From Thermocrispum agreste DSM 44070 (GTDB taxonomy: Bacteria > Actinomycetota > Actinomycetes > Mycobacteriales > Pseudonocardiaceae), in the NCBI RefSeq assembly GCF_000427905.1, contig NZ_ATYX01000007.1:310001-374000 (forward strand): DNA of 64,000 bases, written 5' to 3'. Under the pieces are notes generated by a model. The model was given only the letters and a program-made list of their open reading frames with translations. It searched no databases and had not been told where the DNA came from. The position numbers and the translations under genes are program-made. Positions 29,981 to 39,559 of the stretch are shown here, piece after piece. Positions within the stretch are counted from its first letter, which is position 1; the number at the start of each line of letters is the position of its first letter.

Positions 29981-30697
29981 TCAGCCGCGGTCGTCACCTT
30001 CCTGCGGATCCCACGCCAGCAGCCGCACTTTGGCCACCGTCCGGACGTGTGTGCGCATGGCCTCGGCCGCCCTGTCCGGGTCGCCCGCCCGGATCGCCTC
30101 CAGGATCGCCCGGTGCTGCGCCATGGACTGGTGCGGCCGCTCCGGCTGGCGCAGCGACTCGTTCCTGCTCTCGGCGATCTGCACCGAGATCGAGCGCATG
30201 AACTCGGCCAGCAGCCCGCTGCGCGCGGCCGCGGTGATCGCCTCGTGGAACCGCCGGTCGCCCTCGATGCCGTAGCCGCCGTCCTCGATCTCGGCCGCCA
30301 TGTGCTCCAGCGCGGCGTCCATCGCGGCCAGGTCCTCGTCGGTGCGCCGCATGGCGGCCAGCTCGGCCAGCTTCGTCTCCAGCGCCTCGCGCGCCTCCAG
30401 CACCTCGGGCAGCCTGCGGCGGCGTGCCATCATCTCGTCCACCGTCTCGACGGCCAGCCGGTCGGCGCGCAGGTAGGTGCCGCCGCCGTGCCGGGACTCG
30501 ACCAGTCCCTGCACCTCCAGCACCACGATGGCCTGCTTGACCGATGCACGGCTGACCCCGAGCCGCTCGGCCAGCTCCCGCTCACCGGGCAGCTTGTCGC
30601 CCGCGCGCAGGCCCGCCTCCTCGACATGCGCCTTGATGCGCTCGATGACCTGCTCGTACAGCCGCAGCCGGTTCACCCGGCTCAGGGCCCCAGACAC
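29981..30697 (-). CDS. GntR-family regulator with FCD domain
   Basis: A 238-residue FadR-type regulator. The winged helix is LYEQVIERIKAHVEEAGLRAG ... KLPGERELAERLGVSRASVKQAIVVLEVQGLVESRHGGGTYL; the C-terminal helical FCD domain (EAREALETKLAELAAMRR, DRRFHEAITAAARS, QHRAILEAIRAGDPDRAAEAM) binds metal and small carboxylates in known members. It is divergent from the malonate carrier and ligase genes, so malonate or malonyl-CoA is a natural effector guess. The GTG at 30697 is supported by AAGGG upstream and by where the helix-turn-helix begins. Confidence 0.88.
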   Translation of the reverse strand: MSGALSRVNRLRLYEQVIERIKAHVEEAGLRAGDKLPGERELAERLGVSRASVKQAIVVLEVQGLVESRHGGGTYLRADRLAVETVDEMMARRRRLPEVLEAREALETKLAELAAMRRTDEDLAAMDAALEHMAAEIEDGGYGIEGDRRFHEAITAAARSGLLAEFMRSISVQIAESRNESLRQPERPHQSMAQHRAILEAIRAGDPDRAAEAMRTHVRTVAKVRLLAWDPQEGDDRG

Positions 30698-30785
30698 CGG
30701 AACTACCCTTCGCTCGTCGATCGGCGCAGCGCGTACCGACGCTCGACCACGGACAAACTGGATAAGCCACTCTACCAATGAGACC

Positions 30786-30842
30786 TTGACAGTGACGCCG
30801 CTCACGAGACAAAGTGGCTCATCCACTAATCCACTCAGCCAC
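30786..30842. promoter_or_regulatory. matC promoter with GntR-type operator
   Basis: TTGACA at 30786-30791 is a consensus -35 box for the plus strand. GTGGCT (30814-30819) and AGCCAC (30837-30842) form an inverted repeat enclosing ATCCACTAATCCACTC. Another AGCCACT half-site lies near 30765. The repeat sits where the -10 box and transcript start would be, as expected for a repressor site. Confidence 0.5.
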
Positions 30843-30873
30843 CAGTCCGTTGGCGACGCCAAGGAGGACGGTC

Positions 30874-32184
30874 GTGTCCGCGGAAATGATCTCGATCCTC
30901 GTCCTCGCCGTGATCTTCGTGCTGGCCACGACGCTGTCGATCAACATGGGCGCGCTCGCCTTCGCGGGCGCCTTCCTGGTCGGCACGCTGGCCGGTGGCC
31001 TGGATTCCGACGGCATCTTCGCCGGCTTCCCCGGCGACATCTTCGTCGTGTTGGTCGGCGTCACGTACCTGTTCGCCATCGCCCGCGCCAATGGCACGAC
31101 CGACTGGCTGGTCGGCGCCGCGGTGCGCCTGGTCGGTGGCCGTATCGCGCTCATCCCGTGGGTGATGTACGTGATCACCGCGGTCCTGACCGCCATCGGC
31201 GCGCTCAGCCCGGCCGCGTGCGCGATCGTCGCCCCGATCGCCCTCGGGTTCGCCGCCCGGTACGACATCAGCCCGCTGCTGATGGGTGCCATGGTGGTGC
31301 ACGGCGCGCAGGGCGGCGGCTTCTCCCCGATCAGCGTCTACGGCTCGATCGTCAACGGCATCGTCGAGCGCAACGACCTGCCCGGCAGCCCGACGGTGCT
31401 GTTCCTGGCGTCGCTGATCATGAACACCGCCATCGCGGCCGTGCTGTACGTGGTGCTCGGTGGCACCAGGCTGCCGCGGCGGGAGCTGGCCAAGGTCGGC
31501 GCCGGTTCGGACGTGCCGTCCGGCGGGTCGGCCGGTTCCGGCGGTGACGGGCAGGACGACCCGCTGCCGCACGAGCGCCGCATCCCGCTGGACGCGCCGA
31601 AGATCGCCACGCTGCTCGGCCTGGTGGCACTGGTGGTCAGCACCCTGGTGTTCGAGCTGGACGCCGGCCTGACCGCGATCACGATCGCCGTGGTGTTGAG
31701 CGTGCTGTGGCCGAACAGCACCAGGAAGGCGGTCAGCGAGATCACCTGGCCGACCGTGCTGCTGATCTGCGGTGTGCTCACCTACGTCGGCGTGCTGCAG
31801 GAGATCGGCACGATCGAGTACGTCGGCAACGCGGTCAGCAACGTCGGCATCCCGCTGCTGGCGGCCGTGCTGTTGTGCTACATCGGCGGCATCGTCTCGG
31901 CGTTCGCCTCGTCGGTCGGGCTGATGGGCGCGCTGATCCCGCTCGCCCTGCCGTTCCTGGCGCAAGGCACCATCGGCCCCATCGGCATGGTGGCCGCGAT
32001 CGCCGTCGCGTCGACCATGGTGGACGTCAGCCCGTTCTCCACCAACGGCGCGCTGGTGCTCGCCAACGCCAAGAACGTCGACCGTGACCGCTTCTTCAAA
32101 CAGTTGATGGGCTACGGCGCGATCGTCGTCGCGGTGGCGCCGCTGGCCGCTTGGCTGGTTCTCGTCGTCCCCGGCTGGGGCTAG
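30874..32184 (+). CDS. matC: dicarboxylate (malonate) carrier, MatC-like
   Basis: A 436-residue membrane protein with about twelve hydrophobic segments. It belongs to the ion-transporter superfamily branch containing MatC/CitMHS/SLC13-type carriers: GIFAGFPGDIFVVLVGVTYL, ALSPAACAIVAPIALGFA, VHGAQGGGFSPISVYGSIV and STMVDVSPFSTNGALVLANA. The last two are the paired hairpin motifs of this fold. A hydrophilic loop (PSGGSAGSGGDGQDDPLPHE) separates the halves. The GTG start at 30874 has GGAGG eight bases before it. The malonyl-CoA ligase immediately downstream makes malonate the likely substrate. Confidence 0.8.
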   Translation: MSAEMISILVLAVIFVLATTLSINMGALAFAGAFLVGTLAGGLDSDGIFAGFPGDIFVVLVGVTYLFAIARANGTTDWLVGAAVRLVGGRIALIPWVMYVITAVLTAIGALSPAACAIVAPIALGFAARYDISPLLMGAMVVHGAQGGGFSPISVYGSIVNGIVERNDLPGSPTVLFLASLIMNTAIAAVLYVVLGGTRLPRRELAKVGAGSDVPSGGSAGSGGDGQDDPLPHERRIPLDAPKIATLLGLVALVVSTLVFELDAGLTAITIAVVLSVLWPNSTRKAVSEITWPTVLLICGVLTYVGVLQEIGTIEYVGNAVSNVGIPLLAAVLLCYIGGIVSAFASSVGLMGALIPLALPFLAQGTIGPIGMVAAIAVASTMVDVSPFSTNGALVLANAKNVDRDRFFKQLMGYGAIVVAVAPLAAWLVLVVPGWG

Positions 32185-32195
32185 GAGGAATGTGC

Positions 32196-33644
32196 ATGAC
32201 CACGCACCTGCTACCCGATTTGGCCGACGTCTCCCGTCGCGGTGACCGCGTTGCCCTGCGGTTCGGCGACACGGCGTTGACCTACCGGGAGCTCGCCGCC
32301 GTCGCCGCCGGCACGGCGAGCCGGCTGGCCGGACTGCGCCGTGTGGCGGTCTGGGCCACTCCCACGGCCGAGACGTGCGCCGCGGTGGTCGCCGCGCTCG
32401 CCGCGGGCGTGGCGGTGGTGCCGATCAACCCCAAGATCGGCAAGCGGGAAATGTCGCACATCGTCGGCGACGCCGAGCCGGACCGGGTGCTGGCCGCTCC
32501 CGGTGCCGAGCTCCCGGGCGAGCTGGCCGGCCTGCCGCGCATCGACGTGACGCTGACCCCGCCCGCGCAGCCGGGTCCGTGGCCTGCCGAGCCGCCTGCC
32601 TCCACTCCCGCGTTCATCGTCTACACCTCGGGGACGACCGGCCCGCCGAAGGGTGTGGTGCTGCCCCGGCGCGCCCTCACCTCGAACCTGGACGCGCTGG
32701 CCGAGGTGTGGGAGTGGACGGCGGACGACGTGCTGGTGCACGGGTTGCCGCTGTTCCACGTGCACGGGCTGATCCTCGGCGTGGTCGGCCCGCTGCGGCG
32801 TGGCTGCACCCTGCACCACGTCGGGAAATTCTCCACCGAGGCGGTCGCGGCCGAGCTGGCCGGTGACGCCACCATGCTGTTCGGCGTCCCGACCATGTAC
32901 CACCGGCTGGCCGAGGACTGCGCCGCCGACCGGGAGATGGCCGAGGCGATCGGGCGGGCCCGGCTGCTGGTGTCCGGCTCGGCCGCCCTGCCCGCCACCG
33001 AGCACCAGCGCATCGAGCAACTCACCGGACAGCGGGTCATCGAGCGCTACGGGATGACCGAGACGCTGATGAACTGCAGCGTCCGGTTCTCCGGCGACCG
33101 CCGTCCCGGCACGGTCGGGCTGCCGTTGCCGGGTGTCGACCTCCGCCTGGTCGACGACGACGGCAACCCCATCCCGGAGCAGGACACCGACGCCGTCGGC
33201 GAGATCGAGGTGCGGGGCCCGAACCTGTTCCTCGGCTACCTCAACCGGCCGGACGCCACGGCGGAGGCCATGCACGACGGGTGGTTCCGCACCGGGGACA
33301 TGGCCAGGCGCGACCCGGACGGCTACGTCCGCATCGTCGGCAGGCGTGCCACCGACCTGATCAAGAGCGGCGGGTACAAGATCGGCGCGGGCGAGATCGA
33401 GAACGTGCTGCTCGACCACCCGCAGGTCGCCGAGGTCGCGGTGACCGGGGAGCCGGATCCCGACCTGGGCGAGCGCATCGTCGCCTGGGTGGTGGCCAGG
33501 GACGAGCGGCCGAGCGCCGACGAGCTCATCGCCCACGTGGCCGAGCAGCTCGCCGCCCACAAGCGCCCGCGCGAGGTGCGCTTCCTGTCCGCGCTCCCCC
33601 GCAACGACATGGGCAAGGTGATGAAGCGTGCGCTCCGTGCTTGA
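32196..33644 (+). CDS. matB: malonyl-CoA synthetase, MatB-like
   Basis: A 482-residue AMP-forming ligase. The phosphate loop is VYTSGTTGPPKGVVL; the adenylate motifs YGMTE and WFRTGDMA are intact and the acyl-transfer lysine lies in RNDMGKVMKR near the C-terminus. The length is short for the superfamily but normal for MatB, and HGLPLFHVHGL and ERYGMTETLMN resemble it closely. It converts malonate, CoA and ATP to malonyl-CoA. GGAGGAA precedes the ATG; it follows matC by 11 bases and overlaps the next gene. Confidence 0.85.
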   Translation: MTTHLLPDLADVSRRGDRVALRFGDTALTYRELAAVAAGTASRLAGLRRVAVWATPTAETCAAVVAALAAGVAVVPINPKIGKREMSHIVGDAEPDRVLAAPGAELPGELAGLPRIDVTLTPPAQPGPWPAEPPASTPAFIVYTSGTTGPPKGVVLPRRALTSNLDALAEVWEWTADDVLVHGLPLFHVHGLILGVVGPLRRGCTLHHVGKFSTEAVAAELAGDATMLFGVPTMYHRLAEDCAADREMAEAIGRARLLVSGSAALPATEHQRIEQLTGQRVIERYGMTETLMNCSVRFSGDRRPGTVGLPLPGVDLRLVDDDGNPIPEQDTDAVGEIEVRGPNLFLGYLNRPDATAEAMHDGWFRTGDMARRDPDGYVRIVGRRATDLIKSGGYKIGAGEIENVLLDHPQVAEVAVTGEPDPDLGERIVAWVVARDERPSADELIAHVAEQLAAHKRPREVRFLSALPRNDMGKVMKRALRA

Positions 33645-34989
33645 CCACGTCGTCAGTGACTTCACCCCCCTCCCCGCCCCCGGTGACGACCACGGCCGCG
33701 ACGGCCCGCTCGGCTGGCCCGGATACGGCGACCAGCGCGACCGCGCCGAGCAGCAGACGGGCGCGAGCGAAGCGGTCGTCTGCGGCCGTGGTCGTCTTGC
33801 CAGCCGGGAGGCGATCGTGATCCACTTCGAGTTCGGCTACCTGGGCGGCTCGCTCGGCGCCGGAGCCGGTGCCCGGATCGCCGACGCTTTCGACCGGGCA
33901 GTGGCGGAACGGCTCCCCGTGGTCACGTTCATCGCCTCGGGTGGCACCCGGATGCAGGAGGGCATGGTCGCCCTGCGGCAGCTGCAGACGCTGGCCCACC
34001 ACTGCGTGCGCCTGCGCGACCACGGGCTGCCGCACGTGGCGGTGCTGAACGATCCGACGACCGGCGGCGTGTGGGCCACCCTCGGATCGTCGGCGGACGT
34101 CGTCGTGGCCCTGCCAGGAGCTCAGGTCGCCTTCGCCGGGCGGCGGGTCCGCTCGGGCCCGGACGCCGACGACCCGGTCTACACCGCCGAGTCGCACTGG
34201 CACGCCGGGCAGGTCGACGAGGTGGTCGGCGCGGACGAGCTCGGTGCCTGCGTGGCCGAGTGGCTGGAGCTGCTGACCGGCGGCTCGCCGGAACCGGCGG
34301 AGGTACCGCGGGCGCTGGGCGGCGCCGACGAGGCCGCGGACGGCTGGCAGGCGGTGCAACGAACCCGGGACGCGCGGCGGCCACGCGCCCAGGCTTACCT
34401 CGACGACTACTTCGACCGCCGCCGCTACATCTCCGGCGACCGGGCGGGTGGCGTCGACAGCGGGATGCTCTGCGGCGTCGGCCGTCGCGGCGGGCGGTCC
34501 ATCGCCTTCGCCGCGCAAACCGGCACCCGGACCACTCCCGCGGGTTTCCGCACCGCGACGCGGCTCGTGCGGCTGGCCGACCGGCTCGGCCTGCCCGTGC
34601 TGACCCTCGTGGACACCCCGGGCGCGGCCGCCGACCCGGAGGCGGAGCGGGCGGGCGTCGGACCGGCGATCGCGGAACTGTTCACCACCATCGCGGCCGC
34701 GCGCGTCCCGGTCACCACGCTGGTGATCGGGGAAGGCGGGTCCGGTGGTGCGCTGGCCGCGTGCTCCCCCGACCGGCTGTGGATCACCCCGGACGCCTAC
34801 TTCTCGGTGATCGCTCCCGAGCTGGCGGCCGCCATCCTCAAGCGGCCGGAGGCCGAGGTCCCCGACCTGGCCAGGACGCTGCGGCTCCGGCCGAGCGACC
34901 TGCTGGAACTGGGCGTGGTCGACGGCATCGCCGAGGCGCGGCCCCGGCCGGCCACCCCGGTGCACGCGGTCCGCGCCACATCTAGTTGA
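33628..34989 (+). CDS. fused carboxyltransferase (AccD-like plus AccA-like halves)
   Basis: A 453-residue crotonase-fold protein with two carboxyltransferase halves in one chain. The N-half has LGGSLGAGAGARIADAFDRA, FIASGGTRMQEGMVALRQLQ and NDPTTGGVWATLG; the C-half has LPVLTLVDTPGAAADPEAER and GEGGSGGALAACSPDRLWI. There is no four-cysteine zinc finger at the N-terminus and no biotin carboxylase or biotin carrier gene nearby. In the malonate locus it may act as a biotin-independent decarboxylase of malonyl groups, like MdcD/MdcE, taking the place of MatA; this is inference. It overlaps matB by 17 bases. Confidence 0.75.
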   Translation: MRSVLDHVVSDFTPLPAPGDDHGRDGPLGWPGYGDQRDRAEQQTGASEAVVCGRGRLASREAIVIHFEFGYLGGSLGAGAGARIADAFDRAVAERLPVVTFIASGGTRMQEGMVALRQLQTLAHHCVRLRDHGLPHVAVLNDPTTGGVWATLGSSADVVVALPGAQVAFAGRRVRSGPDADDPVYTAESHWHAGQVDEVVGADELGACVAEWLELLTGGSPEPAEVPRALGGADEAADGWQAVQRTRDARRPRAQAYLDDYFDRRRYISGDRAGGVDSGMLCGVGRRGGRSIAFAAQTGTRTTPAGFRTATRLVRLADRLGLPVLTLVDTPGAAADPEAERAGVGPAIAELFTTIAAARVPVTTLVIGEGGSGGALAACSPDRLWITPDAYFSVIAPELAAAILKRPEAEVPDLARTLRLRPSDLLELGVVDGIAEARPRPATPVHAVRATSS

Positions 34990-35052: not shown

Positions 35053-37215
35053 ATGAGGCCACGGACCGCGTTGATCAGGCTTGGCGTCGACATCGGCGAG
35101 TTCACCGATCCCGCCGGCGCGGTGGAGCGCGCCGTCGAGGCGGAGCGGCTCGGTTACGACTACGTACTGGCCGCGAGCACCGAAGGCGGCCTGGACGCCT
35201 GGGCGTTGCTCAGCTGGACGGCCGCTCGCACGGAACGGATCGGCCTGGTCGCCGCGGGCCTGGACGTGGCGGAGATCCGTCCGGCGGTGCTCGCCAGGGC
35301 GGCAGGCAGCCTCGACGTGCTCGGCAAGGGCCGGGTGACACTGGAGCTTCGGCCGGGCCCGGCGGCCGCCGAGGCAGTGACGGTGCTCCGCCGGATGTGG
35401 GACACCTCGCAGCGTCGTGTCCACCACGACGGAGCGTTCCGGCTGGCCGGGGCCGAGCCCGGCCCGCTCCCAGCGCACGACGTGCGCATTTGGATCGGCG
35501 GGGACGACCCGAACGCTGTCAAGGTAGCCGCGGACGCAGCGGACGGGTGGCGTGCAGGCGTTCCCGGACAAGACAGTCGGCAGCTGGCCCGGACCATGCA
35601 GCTGCTGGCGAAAGCCCTCGCCGAAGCCGGCCGCGACGAGCGCGAACTGGATCGCGTGGTCACACTGCCGGACACGGTCGGCGCGCAGGACGTCGAGACC
35701 TTGGCTTCACTGGTCACCGAACACGGAGTCACGACGTTCGTGCTGCGGGTCGACGAGCGGTCCCCGGCGGATGCGCTCGAGCGGTTCGCGCGCGAGGTTG
35801 CGCCGCGGCTGAACGAGGCCGCTCAGCACGCGATGACGGAAGGACGCTTCTCACCCGTCCCGATGCGGCGTGCCGAGGTGCGCGCCCAGCGGGTGCCGGG
35901 CATCGACTACGACGGGCTGCCCGCCAACCTCGCGGCGACCGCCGTCGAGCCGGGTGACCTGCTCTACCCCACCACTCGCTCGACCTATCTGCGCGGCGGC
36001 GCGCCCGGGTTGGTGCTCCGCCCGCAAACGGTGGACGACGTGGTCGATGCGGTGGCGTTCGCCCACCGGCACCGGCACGTCCCGCTCGGGATTCGCAGCG
36101 GCGGGCACGGCATCAGCGGCCGATCCACCAATGACGGCGGCTTGGTGATCGATCTCGGCGCACTGAACGCCATCGAAGTGCTCGACGAGGATCGGCGGCT
36201 GGTCCGCATCGGGCCGGGCGCCCGATGGCGTGACGTCGCCAGGGCGCTGCAGCCGTACGGGTGGGCGCTCGGCTCGGGCGACTACGGCGGCGTCGGCGTC
36301 GGCGGCCTGGCGACCTCGGGCGGGATCGGGTACCTGAGCCGCAAGCACGGACTCACCATCGACCACCTGCAGGCGGTGGACATGGTCCTCGCCGACGGCT
36401 CCACGGTGCGGGCCAGCCACGCGGAGAACCCCGAGTTGTTCTGGGCGGTGCGCGGGGCGGGCGCCGGCTTCGGCATCGTGACCGGGTTCGAATTCACCGT
36501 GGACGAGGTGAGCGACGTTGGCTGGGCACAGCTGGCGTTCTGGGTGGCCGATCCGGCCGACTTCCTGCTGAAGTTCGGCGCAGCGGTCACCGCGGCGCCG
36601 CGTGAGACGACACCGTTCCTCATCATGAACAGCAGCTCCGCGCAGGTGATGGCGATGGTGGCGACGGACGACCCGGACGAGATCCTGGCGCAGCTTCGCC
36701 CGATCGCCCAGATCGCGCCCCTGGTGCAGCAGCAAGTGGTGGTCGCCCCCTACGCGGCGGTGATGAACATGTTCCCCGACGCTCCGCACCAGGGCCGCGG
36801 CGAACCGGTCTCGCGGTCCGGCCTGGTCACGTCCATCACTCCGGAGTTCGCCGAGGACAGCGCTCGGCTGCTCGCCAGCGGCGCGGTGCACTGGTTCCAG
36901 CTGCGCAGCATGGGTGGCGCGATCGCCGACGTGGCACCGGAGGAGACCGCGTTCGCCCACCGCGACGCGGCTTTCCAGATCACCGCCATGGGCAGCCATC
37001 CCCAGCGGGTGGACCGCTGGTGGAACGAGCTGCGCAAGCATTTCAGCGGCATCTACCTCAACTTCGAAAGCGACACCAGCCCGCAGCGGGTGGCCGAGGC
37101 GTTCCCGCCCCCAGTGCTGTCGCGGCTGCGCAAGCTCAAGGCCGAGCTCGACCCGACCGGCTTGTTCCGGGACAACTTCACCCTTGCCGAGAACCCCGTG
37201 GGGAGAACAGCATGA
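35053..37215 (+). CDS. fusion protein: luciferase-like monooxygenase domain plus berberine-bridge-type FAD oxidase
   Basis: A 720-residue protein. Residues 1-260 form a luciferase-like (LLM) barrel as in F420- or FMN-dependent enzymes: IRLGVDIGEFTDPAGAVERA, LSWTAARTERIGLV, LARAAGSLDVLGKGRVTLEL, DVRIWIGGDDPNAVK. After a linker, 290-715 is an FAD_binding_4 plus BBE oxidase: GLVLRPQTVDDVVDAVAFA, IRSGGHGISGRSTNDGGLVI (His that usually carries FAD), GGLATSGGIGYLSRKHGL and a C-terminal NFESDTS ... DPTGLFRDNFT. The reading frame is continuous. The LLM half is shorter than usual. The gene overlaps the following LLM gene by four bases. Confidence 0.85.
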   Translation: MRPRTALIRLGVDIGEFTDPAGAVERAVEAERLGYDYVLAASTEGGLDAWALLSWTAARTERIGLVAAGLDVAEIRPAVLARAAGSLDVLGKGRVTLELRPGPAAAEAVTVLRRMWDTSQRRVHHDGAFRLAGAEPGPLPAHDVRIWIGGDDPNAVKVAADAADGWRAGVPGQDSRQLARTMQLLAKALAEAGRDERELDRVVTLPDTVGAQDVETLASLVTEHGVTTFVLRVDERSPADALERFAREVAPRLNEAAQHAMTEGRFSPVPMRRAEVRAQRVPGIDYDGLPANLAATAVEPGDLLYPTTRSTYLRGGAPGLVLRPQTVDDVVDAVAFAHRHRHVPLGIRSGGHGISGRSTNDGGLVIDLGALNAIEVLDEDRRLVRIGPGARWRDVARALQPYGWALGSGDYGGVGVGGLATSGGIGYLSRKHGLTIDHLQAVDMVLADGSTVRASHAENPELFWAVRGAGAGFGIVTGFEFTVDEVSDVGWAQLAFWVADPADFLLKFGAAVTAAPRETTPFLIMNSSSAQVMAMVATDDPDEILAQLRPIAQIAPLVQQQVVVAPYAAVMNMFPDAPHQGRGEPVSRSGLVTSITPEFAEDSARLLASGAVHWFQLRSMGGAIADVAPEETAFAHRDAAFQITAMGSHPQRVDRWWNELRKHFSGIYLNFESDTSPQRVAEAFPPPVLSRLRKLKAELDPTGLFRDNFTLAENPVGRTA

Positions 37216-38123
37216 CCGACTACGGACACGAGTTGTTGTTTGGCACCTTCGTCACCCCCACGGCGCAGCCGGTGCGGCATGCGGTCGAGCAAGCCGTCGT
37301 GGCCGATCGTGCGGGCCTCGACCTGGTCACGTTCCAGGACCACCCCTACGTCGCCCGGTTCCACGACACGTGGACGCTCATCGCTTACGCCGCGGCACGC
37401 ACCGAACGCGTGCGCCTGACCGCGAACGTGACGAACCTGCCGTTGCGCCCGCCGGCCCAGCTCGCACGCAGTGTGGCGACGCTCGACCGGCTGTCCGGTG
37501 GCCGCATCGAGCTCGGTCTCGGCGCCGGAGGCCACTGGGACGCCATCGCGTCGATGGGCGGCAGGCGGCTCCGGCCGGGCGAGTCGATCGAGGCGCTCGA
37601 GGAAGCCGTGCAGATCATTCGCGGGGTGTGGGACACCGACACGCGAGGCGGCTTGACCCTGGAAGGCAAGTACTACTCCGTGCGCGGCATGAAGCGGGGC
37701 CCTGCTCCGGCGCATCGGCCGGGCATCTGGATCGGCGCCTACAAGCCGCGCATCCTGCGCACCATCGGCCGGATCGGTGACGGCTGGTTGCCGTCCTACC
37801 AGTACCTGCCGAACGGACCCGACCACCTGGCCTCCGGCAGCGCGATCATCGACGAAGCCGCGGAATCCGTCGGCCGGGATCCACGGGACATCCGGCGGCT
37901 GCTGAACATCACCGGCGAGTTCGCCGAGACCAGCCGGGGGTTCCTGCAAGGACCACCGGACCAGTGGGTGGAAGAACTGACCGACCTCGCGCTGACCTAC
38001 GGCACCAGCGTGTTCGTGCTGGTCTCCGACGACACCACGACGACCGAGGTGTTCGCCAAGGAAGTCGCCCCCGCAGTACGCGAGGAGGTGCAACGGGAGC
38101 GCGCCGCCCAGCCGACCGGGTGA
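37212..38123 (+). CDS. luciferase-like (LLM class) flavin- or F420-dependent oxidoreductase
   Basis: A 303-residue LLM-fold enzyme. HELLFGTFVTPTAQPVRHAV, RAGLDLVTFQDHPYVARFHD, RLTANVTNLPLRPPAQLARS, RIELGLGAGGHWDAIASMGG and PGIWIGAYKPRILRTIGRIG are standard blocks; GAGG and the DHPY loop fit the F420-dependent subgroup. The substrate is unknown. It is coupled by an ATGA overlap to the fused LLM-FAD gene; the two probably act in the same pathway, one as hydride donor or oxygenase, the other as oxidase. Confidence 0.88.
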   Translation: MTDYGHELLFGTFVTPTAQPVRHAVEQAVVADRAGLDLVTFQDHPYVARFHDTWTLIAYAAARTERVRLTANVTNLPLRPPAQLARSVATLDRLSGGRIELGLGAGGHWDAIASMGGRRLRPGESIEALEEAVQIIRGVWDTDTRGGLTLEGKYYSVRGMKRGPAPAHRPGIWIGAYKPRILRTIGRIGDGWLPSYQYLPNGPDHLASGSAIIDEAAESVGRDPRDIRRLLNITGEFAETSRGFLQGPPDQWVEELTDLALTYGTSVFVLVSDDTTTTEVFAKEVAPAVREEVQRERAAQPTG

Positions 38124-38279: not shown

Positions 38280-38887
38280 TCACATCACCTGGCCCAGGGG
38301 GACCGTTGCAACCATCCGTAGCAGCCCTGTCCGCAACAGCACCCGCAGCAGCCATACCGCGGCGGCGCACAGCTTCCTCTGCGGAAGAACTGCACCGGCC
38401 TCATCGTCTCCGTCATCGCCGGAGTCGTGGTCGTCGCTGTCGCCTTGCCCCCGGTTCGTCCTCAGCGACGACAAGAGCGATGACAAGAGCGACGACAAGG
38501 ACGACAAGGACACCGCTGCGGCGAGCTCGTCAGCCGCCGCAAGCGCTCCCAGCCCGGTCCCGGCCAAGCGTGGCGTCGCGCTCGATCCGGCGACGACATG
38601 CCGCAGGAATACGTCCAGCAAGCCACAGCAGTCGCCCACCAGGTGGTGGACGCTCTCAACAAGCACGACGCCGAGCTCGGCGGACAGCTCACCTGCGAGG
38701 GCTCGGTCGTGCCCGCGCTGAATTCATGCCGGAGGACCAGCAGGCTCGTTTCGTCGGCGCAGGCCCGACCGCATCGATCAAGTTGAGCGCCGGCATCCGG
38801 CTCAACTACGACGGCAAGCCAGGCGCCACCCGCACGACGCTCATCGTGCGGCGTGATGGCGTGTGGTGCGTGGACATGATGATCTGA
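38280..38887 (+). pseudogene. decayed gene for a membrane-anchored NTF2/DUF4878-like protein
   Basis: Pieces of one recognisable protein lie in three frames. A QQHPQQPYRGGAQ-type proline-glutamine start and a membrane helix TGLIVSVIAGVVVVAVAL (about 38390-38445) are in one frame. The Asp/Lys and Ala/Ser linker SDDKSDDKSDDKDDKDTAAA is in the next. MPQEYVQQATAVAHQVVDAL from 38598 is back in the first. The end MPEDQQARFVGAG ... TLIVRRDGVWCVDMMI up to 38887 is in the third. At least three frameshifts are needed to join them. No start codon in good context is seen. Sequencing error could mimic this. Confidence 0.6.
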
Positions 38888-38938: not shown

Positions 38939-39559
38939 TCACCGTGAAGCCATGTCGCCGGTGCCCGGCACCCCTTCGGCCAGCCCGTAGCGCAGGTGCA
39001 CGATGCCCGCCGGGCCGGCCGTGGGCGGCTCCAGCAACTTCAGGTTCGACGGCACCGCGCCACCGTCGAAGACCTGCTTGCCGGTGCCGAGCACGATCGG
39101 GTGCACCCACAGGCCGAGCTCGTCGAAGAGCTTCTCGGCCAGCAGGGTCTGCACCAGGTTCAGGCTGCCGACCACTTTCACGTGCTCGTGGCGGGCCCGG
39201 ATGTCGCGCACCTCGCTGACCAGGTCCGCGCCGATCTGTTGCGACCCGGCCCAGGACAAGTCGGGCTTACCGCGCGAAGCCACGTACTTGGGGATGCGGT
39301 TGAACAATTCCGCGAACGCGGCGTCCTCGCCGTCCTGCTGATACGGCCAGTAGGCGGCGAAGATCTCGTACGTGCGACGGCCGAGCAGCAGGGCGTCGGT
39401 GTGTTCGTACGCGGCGGCGATCTTCTCGCCCGTGGCCTCGTCCAGCAGTGGTGCCTGCCAGCCGCCGTAGGCGAAGTTCAGCGGATCCTCGTCCGGGCTG
39501 CCCGGCGCTTGGCCGACCAGGTCCAGTGTCGTGAACAGCTCGATCTCGATGAAACCCAT
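38939..39559 (-). CDS. RibD/dihydrofolate-reductase-fold reductase
   Basis: A 206-residue stand-alone RibD C-terminal-type reductase. IEIELFTTLDLVGQAPGSPD, DALLLGRRTYEIFAAYWPYQ, HVKVVGSLNLVQTLLAEKLF and DELGLWVHPIVLGTGKQVFD are the usual blocks with the NADPH-binding VVGS and the VLGTGK turn. Such proteins are common in actinomycetes and their substrates are mostly unknown; a folate role is not implied. GGGAGA precedes the ATG. Confidence 0.85.
   Translation of the reverse strand: MGFIEIELFTTLDLVGQAPGSPDEDPLNFAYGGWQAPLLDEATGEKIAAAYEHTDALLLGRRTYEIFAAYWPYQQDGEDAAFAELFNRIPKYVASRGKPDLSWAGSQQIGADLVSEVRDIRARHEHVKVVGSLNLVQTLLAEKLFDELGLWVHPIVLGTGKQVFDGGAVPSNLKLLEPPTAGPAGIVHLRYGLAEGVPGTGDMASR

Follow-up and report, generated by a model that had tools for sequence, protein, structure and literature searches.

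A gene fusion of a degenerate luciferase-like domain and an EncM-type FAD oxidase, encoded beside an intact luciferase-like protein in Thermocrispum agreste

Introduction

EncM is the described enzyme to which the FAD oxidase reported here is most readily compared. Its FAD is linked at His78, and a T139V substitution gave oxidase activity (PMC7662398). Mono-covalent members of the berberine-bridge-enzyme-like (BBE-like) group are also known (PMC11375781).

In the luciferase-like (LLM) family a non-prolyl cis-peptide bulge backs the (deaza)flavin ring (PMC5352752). The family includes the F420-dependent hydride transferases (LLHTs) Mer, FGD1, and Adf, of which FGD1 forms dimers with an extensive interface. 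LuxA and LuxB are LLM duplicates, only one of which has an active site, and helices alpha-2 and alpha-3 form the dimer interface of LuxAB.

Both enzyme families are well known. A literature search found no description of an LLM-FAD oxidase fusion, and neither a review of F420 nor a review of BBE-like enzymes mentions a fusion of the two families. Here we describe a conserved cassette that joins an EncM-like oxidase to an N-terminal LLM domain. It was found in a 64,000-nucleotide stretch of the T. agreste DSM 44070 genome (assembly size 4.19 Mb), referred to below as the window.

Results

The fusion gene at window positions 35053-37215 (plus strand) is a single ATG-to-TGA frame without interruption, with 720 codons specifying 720 amino acids. 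An LLM half occupies approximately residues 8-260, and an FAD oxidase of the EncM/6-hydroxynicotine-oxidase type occupies approximately residues 300-712. Pfam matched Bac_luciferase in two stretches of the first half (1.1e-29, best at residues 11-106) and, near the C terminus, the BBE motif at 2.2e-4, above the cut-off. The start of a second luciferase-like gene, here called LLM2, overlaps the end of the fusion in the sequence ATGA (37212-37215), which belongs to both genes. The initial annotation had described a natural fusion of two different flavin folds in one frame, with a luciferase-like gene overlapping its end by four bases. The shared ATGA confirms the overlap; the two folds are borne out by the Pfam matches and the superposition of the LLM half (below), and the fusion by the single frame and its orthologues. 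Feature coordinates are given in Table 1.

Table 1. Coordinates of the cassette features in the window
Feature	Position	Strand	Basis
Fusion gene, degenerate LLM (luciferase-like) domain plus BBE/EncM-type FAD oxidase	35053..37215	+	Single frame, Pfam, full-length orthologues
LLM half, residues 1-270; barrel present, cofactor loops gone	35053..35862	+	pLDDT, Z 28 to Mer, motif table
Site of lost FQDHPY motif (residues 40-43, AAST)	35170..35181	+	Alignment with adjoining LLM2
Helix alpha-2 of LLM half (residues 47-62), partly retained	35191..35238	+	49% match to LLM2 consensus
Helix alpha-3 of LLM half (residues 76-94), best-retained segment, proposed docking helix	35278..35334	+	80% match to LLM2 consensus
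Site of lost GAGGHWDAIASMGGRR loop and helix, ~20 residues deleted	35350..35364	+	Alignments
FAD_binding_4 (PCMH) domain of oxidase half, residues 319-454	36007..36414	+	Pfam 1.9e-32; EncM 9.6e-49
His352, predicted covalent FAD attachment (= EncM His78)	36106..36108	+	Invariant 62/62; EncM alignment
BBE C-terminal motif, residues 668-708	37054..37176	+	Pfam PF08031, 21.6 bits vs cut-off 20.6
LLM2, intact 303-residue luciferase-like hydride-transferase-type protein	37212..38123	+	Pfam 1.8e-49; all motifs present; Foldseek

A search for other fusions, as the initial annotation had proposed, found them in about 60 further genomes. These orthologues, from Pseudonocardiaceae, Actinomadura, Ornithinimicrobium, Nocardioides, and other actinobacteria, are 45-73% identical over both halves. 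The closest relative carrying the fusion is the congener Thermocrispum municipale (72-73% identity, full length). The cassette is present in 42 of the 199 genomes of the family labelled f9 and in 5/39 of family f19. A plasmid search returned one full-length relative, unannotated, in Nonomuraea gerenzanensis, and a PHROGs search gave no match.

Gene calls across the loci distinguish five architectures: (a) a fusion alone, its LLM half intact and no LLM gene next to it; (b) an intact fusion half accompanied by a separate LLM2; (c) LLM2 next to a fusion whose half is eroded, the type found in the window; (d) LLM2 next to a half that has shrunk to ~100-150 residues; and (e) LLM2 and the oxidase as separate, overlapping genes. 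Two further loci are unusual. The cassette at L039:1669-4808 lies on a contig of an Acidobacteria-labelled metagenome-assembled genome, and because its genes are sister to those of Ornithinimicrobium (L042) this contig may be misbinned. L030:864-2760 (genome G004) holds LLM2-like gene fragments together with part of an oxidase half whose match is interrupted by a stop and, judged by these remains, is probably a decayed cassette copy.

Flanking genes are common only within a genus, except for an HxlR regulator, directly divergent at ~20 loci, and a MarR regulator at ~10 loci. Upstream of the cassette, in T. agreste and T. municipale alike, lies a malonate-use operon with the same gene order, at a distance of 63 bp in the window and ~300 bp in T. 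municipale. In the window this operon (29981-34989) comprises a divergent GntR/FCD regulator, a MatC carrier, a malonyl-CoA synthetase-like enzyme, and a carboxyltransferase of 453 residues that combines AccD-like and AccA-like parts in a single chain. It is absent beside the cassette in other genomes and was not taken as functional evidence for a substrate. Downstream of the cassette, the window contains a short DDKS/DDKD codon repeat in a possible small protein (38460-38520) and, on the minus strand, a gene for a RibD_C-domain protein (38939-39559) that also lies beside the cassette in T. municipale.

The oxidase half matches EncM in sequence (9.6e-49). EncM was also its Foldseek match, obtained with a fusion model built from an 8-sequence alignment (mean pLDDT 66) in which the oxidase half is poorly modelled. 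FAD_binding_4 and the C-terminal BBE motif, the hallmarks of BBE-like (VAO/PCMH) enzymes, are both present, as is the histidine for covalent FAD attachment, which aligns with EncM His78 and occurs in 62/62 proteins. For a second, cysteinyl attachment, no cysteine was found in the S408-L419 motif of any of the 62 members; this does not exclude BBE-like membership, because mono-covalent members are known (PMC11375781). The half thus shares with the EncM/6-hydroxy-D-nicotine oxidase type its sequence, the 8-alpha-histidyl FAD histidine, the C-terminal BBE motif, and the lack of a second-site cysteine, but differs in being fused to an LLM barrel and at two positions. EncM Thr139, which marks the O2 pocket of N5-oxide enzymes, is replaced by Val414 (invariant, 62/62), and EncM Val135 is replaced by an invariant aspartate, Asp410. 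EncM-like flavin-N5-oxide chemistry was considered, and Val414 argues against it. Since the threonine has become an invariant valine and the T139V variant of EncM gave oxidase activity, the alignment makes an ordinary oxidase more likely than an N5-oxide oxygenase.

LLM2 contains only a luciferase-like domain according to Pfam. Foldseek matched it to SfnG (top row), FGD1, Mer, and Adf. The barrel with the non-prolyl bulge and Gly-rich loop motifs typical of F420-dependent LLHTs is found in LLM2, and the bulge and GAGGFWD-type motifs are present in 30/30 LLM2 proteins. LLM2 and the intact fusion halves are close to Mer, FGD1, and Adf in sequence and fold and share their barrel and bulge motif; the differences are that the fused half in the window lacks the motifs and that the cassette pairs its LLM protein with an oxidase. 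LLM2 is predicted to bind and use F420, a prediction favored by Mer and FGD1 as its closest solved relatives and indirectly by the co-occurrence of the cassette with the F420 ligase.

The distribution of F420 genes agrees with an F420-dependent partner; F420-dependent hydride transfer had been part of the initial annotation. The F420 ligase CofE is encoded in 42/42 cassette genomes of family f9 vs 69/157 others (Fisher 4.5e-13) and, by genus, in 27/27 with the cassette vs 23/58 without (1e-8), where 42/42 counts genomes rather than independent events and both p values are inflated by shared ancestry. All of CofG/CofH, CofD, and CofE are encoded in the T. agreste genome. No CofH match was found in 17/50 cassette genomes. 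CofG was absent and CofE present in all nine of these that were tested, near-complete genomes (G521, G698, G780, G819, G694, G839, G869, G773, and G358) of which most have CofD; it is absent in G694, G839, G869, and G773. We had taken missing F420 synthesis as an argument for FMN, but dropped it when all nine proved to keep CofE and the family-wide association reversed the inference. Cassette genomes without CofG/CofH may take up FO from outside.

The LLM partner might instead be an FMN-dependent enzyme of the luciferase/monooxygenase type, fed by a flavin reductase and associated with F420 only indirectly. SfnG, the top Foldseek row for LLM2, is an FMN enzyme, and CofG/CofH are missing from many cassette genomes, with CofD missing as well from four, so that FMN, or F420 from outside, may be used there. 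We nonetheless regard dependence on FMN as unlikely, given the ligase in every cassette genome of family f9, the presence of Mer and FGD1 among the closest relatives by sequence (and as the closest of the LLM half), and the absence of any other enzyme gene conserved adjoining the cassette.

The LLM half of the fusion retains its barrel. The model has pLDDT values mostly of 85-92 between residues 10 and 260 and shows eight barrel strands. Superposition on Mer (methylene-tetrahydromethanopterin reductase, 8qpm) gives a Z-score of 28.2, with a root mean square deviation of 1.8 across 240 residues; for bacterial luciferase (1luc_A) the Z-score is 25. The half is ~45 residues shorter than LLM2, and the missing parts are cofactor-side loops. 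The initial annotation was therefore right about the size of the deficit (about 50 residues) but not about its nature, since it had placed the loss in the barrel itself. Absent from the window's half are the Asp-His pair (QDHPY), the non-prolyl cis-peptide bulge motif (NVxNLP), and the Gly-rich loop (GAGGFWDA), all of which LLM2 has; the half thus lacks the cofactor-binding motifs of an F420-dependent LLHT, so that only the separate LLM2 can supply F420 chemistry.

Loss of the Asp-His pair tracks the presence of LLM2. The pair is intact in 32/32 single fusions without LLM2, in only 3 of the 29 fusions with LLM2 (26/29 lack it), and in 30/30 LLM2 genes, giving a Fisher value of 3e-14 for counts of genomes, not of independent events. 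In the 32 single fusions the NVxN bulge and the GAGGFWD-type loop are present with minor substitutions only. In the eroded halves the three cofactor loops match the LLM2 consensus at 12-22%. Helix alpha-3 matches it at 80%, vs 88% in intact halves, and helix alpha-2 at 49%, vs 18% for the adjoining loop.

The LLM2 proteins group in a single supported clade (97*) that branches from among the intact fusion halves, consistent with a single duplication of the fused half as the origin of LLM2; long branches in this tree leave the placement of the eroded halves unsure. The oxidase tree requires at least ~4 changes to explain the erosion, of which the starred (well-supported) branches force ~2. Independent erosion events are few, and independent pairs on this tree are too few for testing.

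In genomes with eroded halves, the LLM half averages 43% pairwise identity; over the same genome pairs LLM2 averages 67% and the oxidase 64%. The half-to-oxidase divergence ratio is 1.64 in eroded fusions vs 0.92 in single fusions. Estimates of dN/dS for the eroded halves are 0.19-0.51 in 9/10 pairs, which, as judged from substitution rates, places the eroded half under weaker but real constraint; LLM2 and the oxidase give roughly 0.11-0.28.

These rates bear on whether the fused half is a vestige, dispensable after the duplication, decaying without a role, and kept merely as an in-frame part. Its dN/dS is ~2x that of LLM2 and the oxidase and reaches 0.92 in one low-divergence pair, and at L054 and L056 it has collapsed to ~100-150 residues, with the beta-1 to alpha-3 stretch still present in both. 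Simple decay nevertheless seems rather improbable in view of the constraint in the other nine pairs, a predicted barrel that appears intact, the retention of helix alpha-3, and the eroded halves remaining in frame in 23 genomes from several families.

The initial annotation also proposed a two-flavin enzyme that could couple F420-dependent hydride transfer to FAD-dependent oxidation. On this reading both halves would bind and use their own cofactor, and LLM2 would be a paralogue with a different role. Both folds are present, and the proposal fits the 32 single-gene orthologues, whose intact motifs make such a bifunctional enzyme the likely ancestral state. For the fusion in the window it is very improbable, since its LLM half lacks all three motifs and ~20 residues of loop and helix and the faster divergence is confined to this half. 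Finally, a sequencing frameshift or misassembly that joined two genes, which the initial annotation had named as grounds for rejecting the fusion, can be dismissed, as nothing was found in its favor and T. municipale and ~60 other genomes carry the same full-length fusion.

Discussion

We consider it somewhat probable (about 0.58) that the fused LLM half in the window has become a pseudo-enzyme and, paired with LLM2, serves as a docking domain that ties an F420-dependent enzyme to the His352-linked FAD oxidase, in keeping with the earlier suggestion that the short half acts as a partner. The fused LLM copy would have lost its active site and turned into a docking subunit, forming a heterodimer with LLM2 in the manner of LuxAB, across the alpha-2/alpha-3 face that it has retained. 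This heterodimer would fasten the F420-dependent hydride transferase to the oxidase. LLM2 would transfer hydride between F420 and a substrate, the oxidase half would pass hydride from the substrate or product to the His352-linked FAD, and O2, the final acceptor, would reoxidize the FAD.

As in LuxA/LuxB, one LLM copy of catalytic type and one degenerate copy are encoded together. The cassette differs from LuxAB in that the copy without an active site is joined to an FAD oxidase of unrelated origin, and nothing about the cassette points to bioluminescence. The putative heterodimer, with its alpha-2/alpha-3 bundle, is proposed by analogy with the LLM family and fits the retention of helix alpha-3. 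Against docking, three fusions retain the Asp-His pair despite having LLM2. Helix alpha-3 is conserved throughout the LLM family and may have been retained for folding alone.

A fuller version of the docking proposal, which we hold only tentatively, is a heteromeric F420/FAD machine in which the degenerate barrel recruits its intact sister, and a very low-potential deazaflavin step is followed by a high-potential FAD step on one substrate. Related genomes would then preserve the passage from separate genes through a bifunctional fusion to a pseudo-enzyme scaffold. We think it probable that the cassette is self-contained and carries out redox chemistry on a small organic molecule, usually under HxlR or MarR regulation; it might serve in stress or detoxification.

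The cassette series forms a natural progression in which a catalytic domain was duplicated, lost its active site only beside a complementing copy, and persists, probably as a scaffold, so that the origin of a LuxB-like pseudo-subunit can be tested directly. For the actinobacteria, the cassette points to a widespread F420-linked oxidation module.
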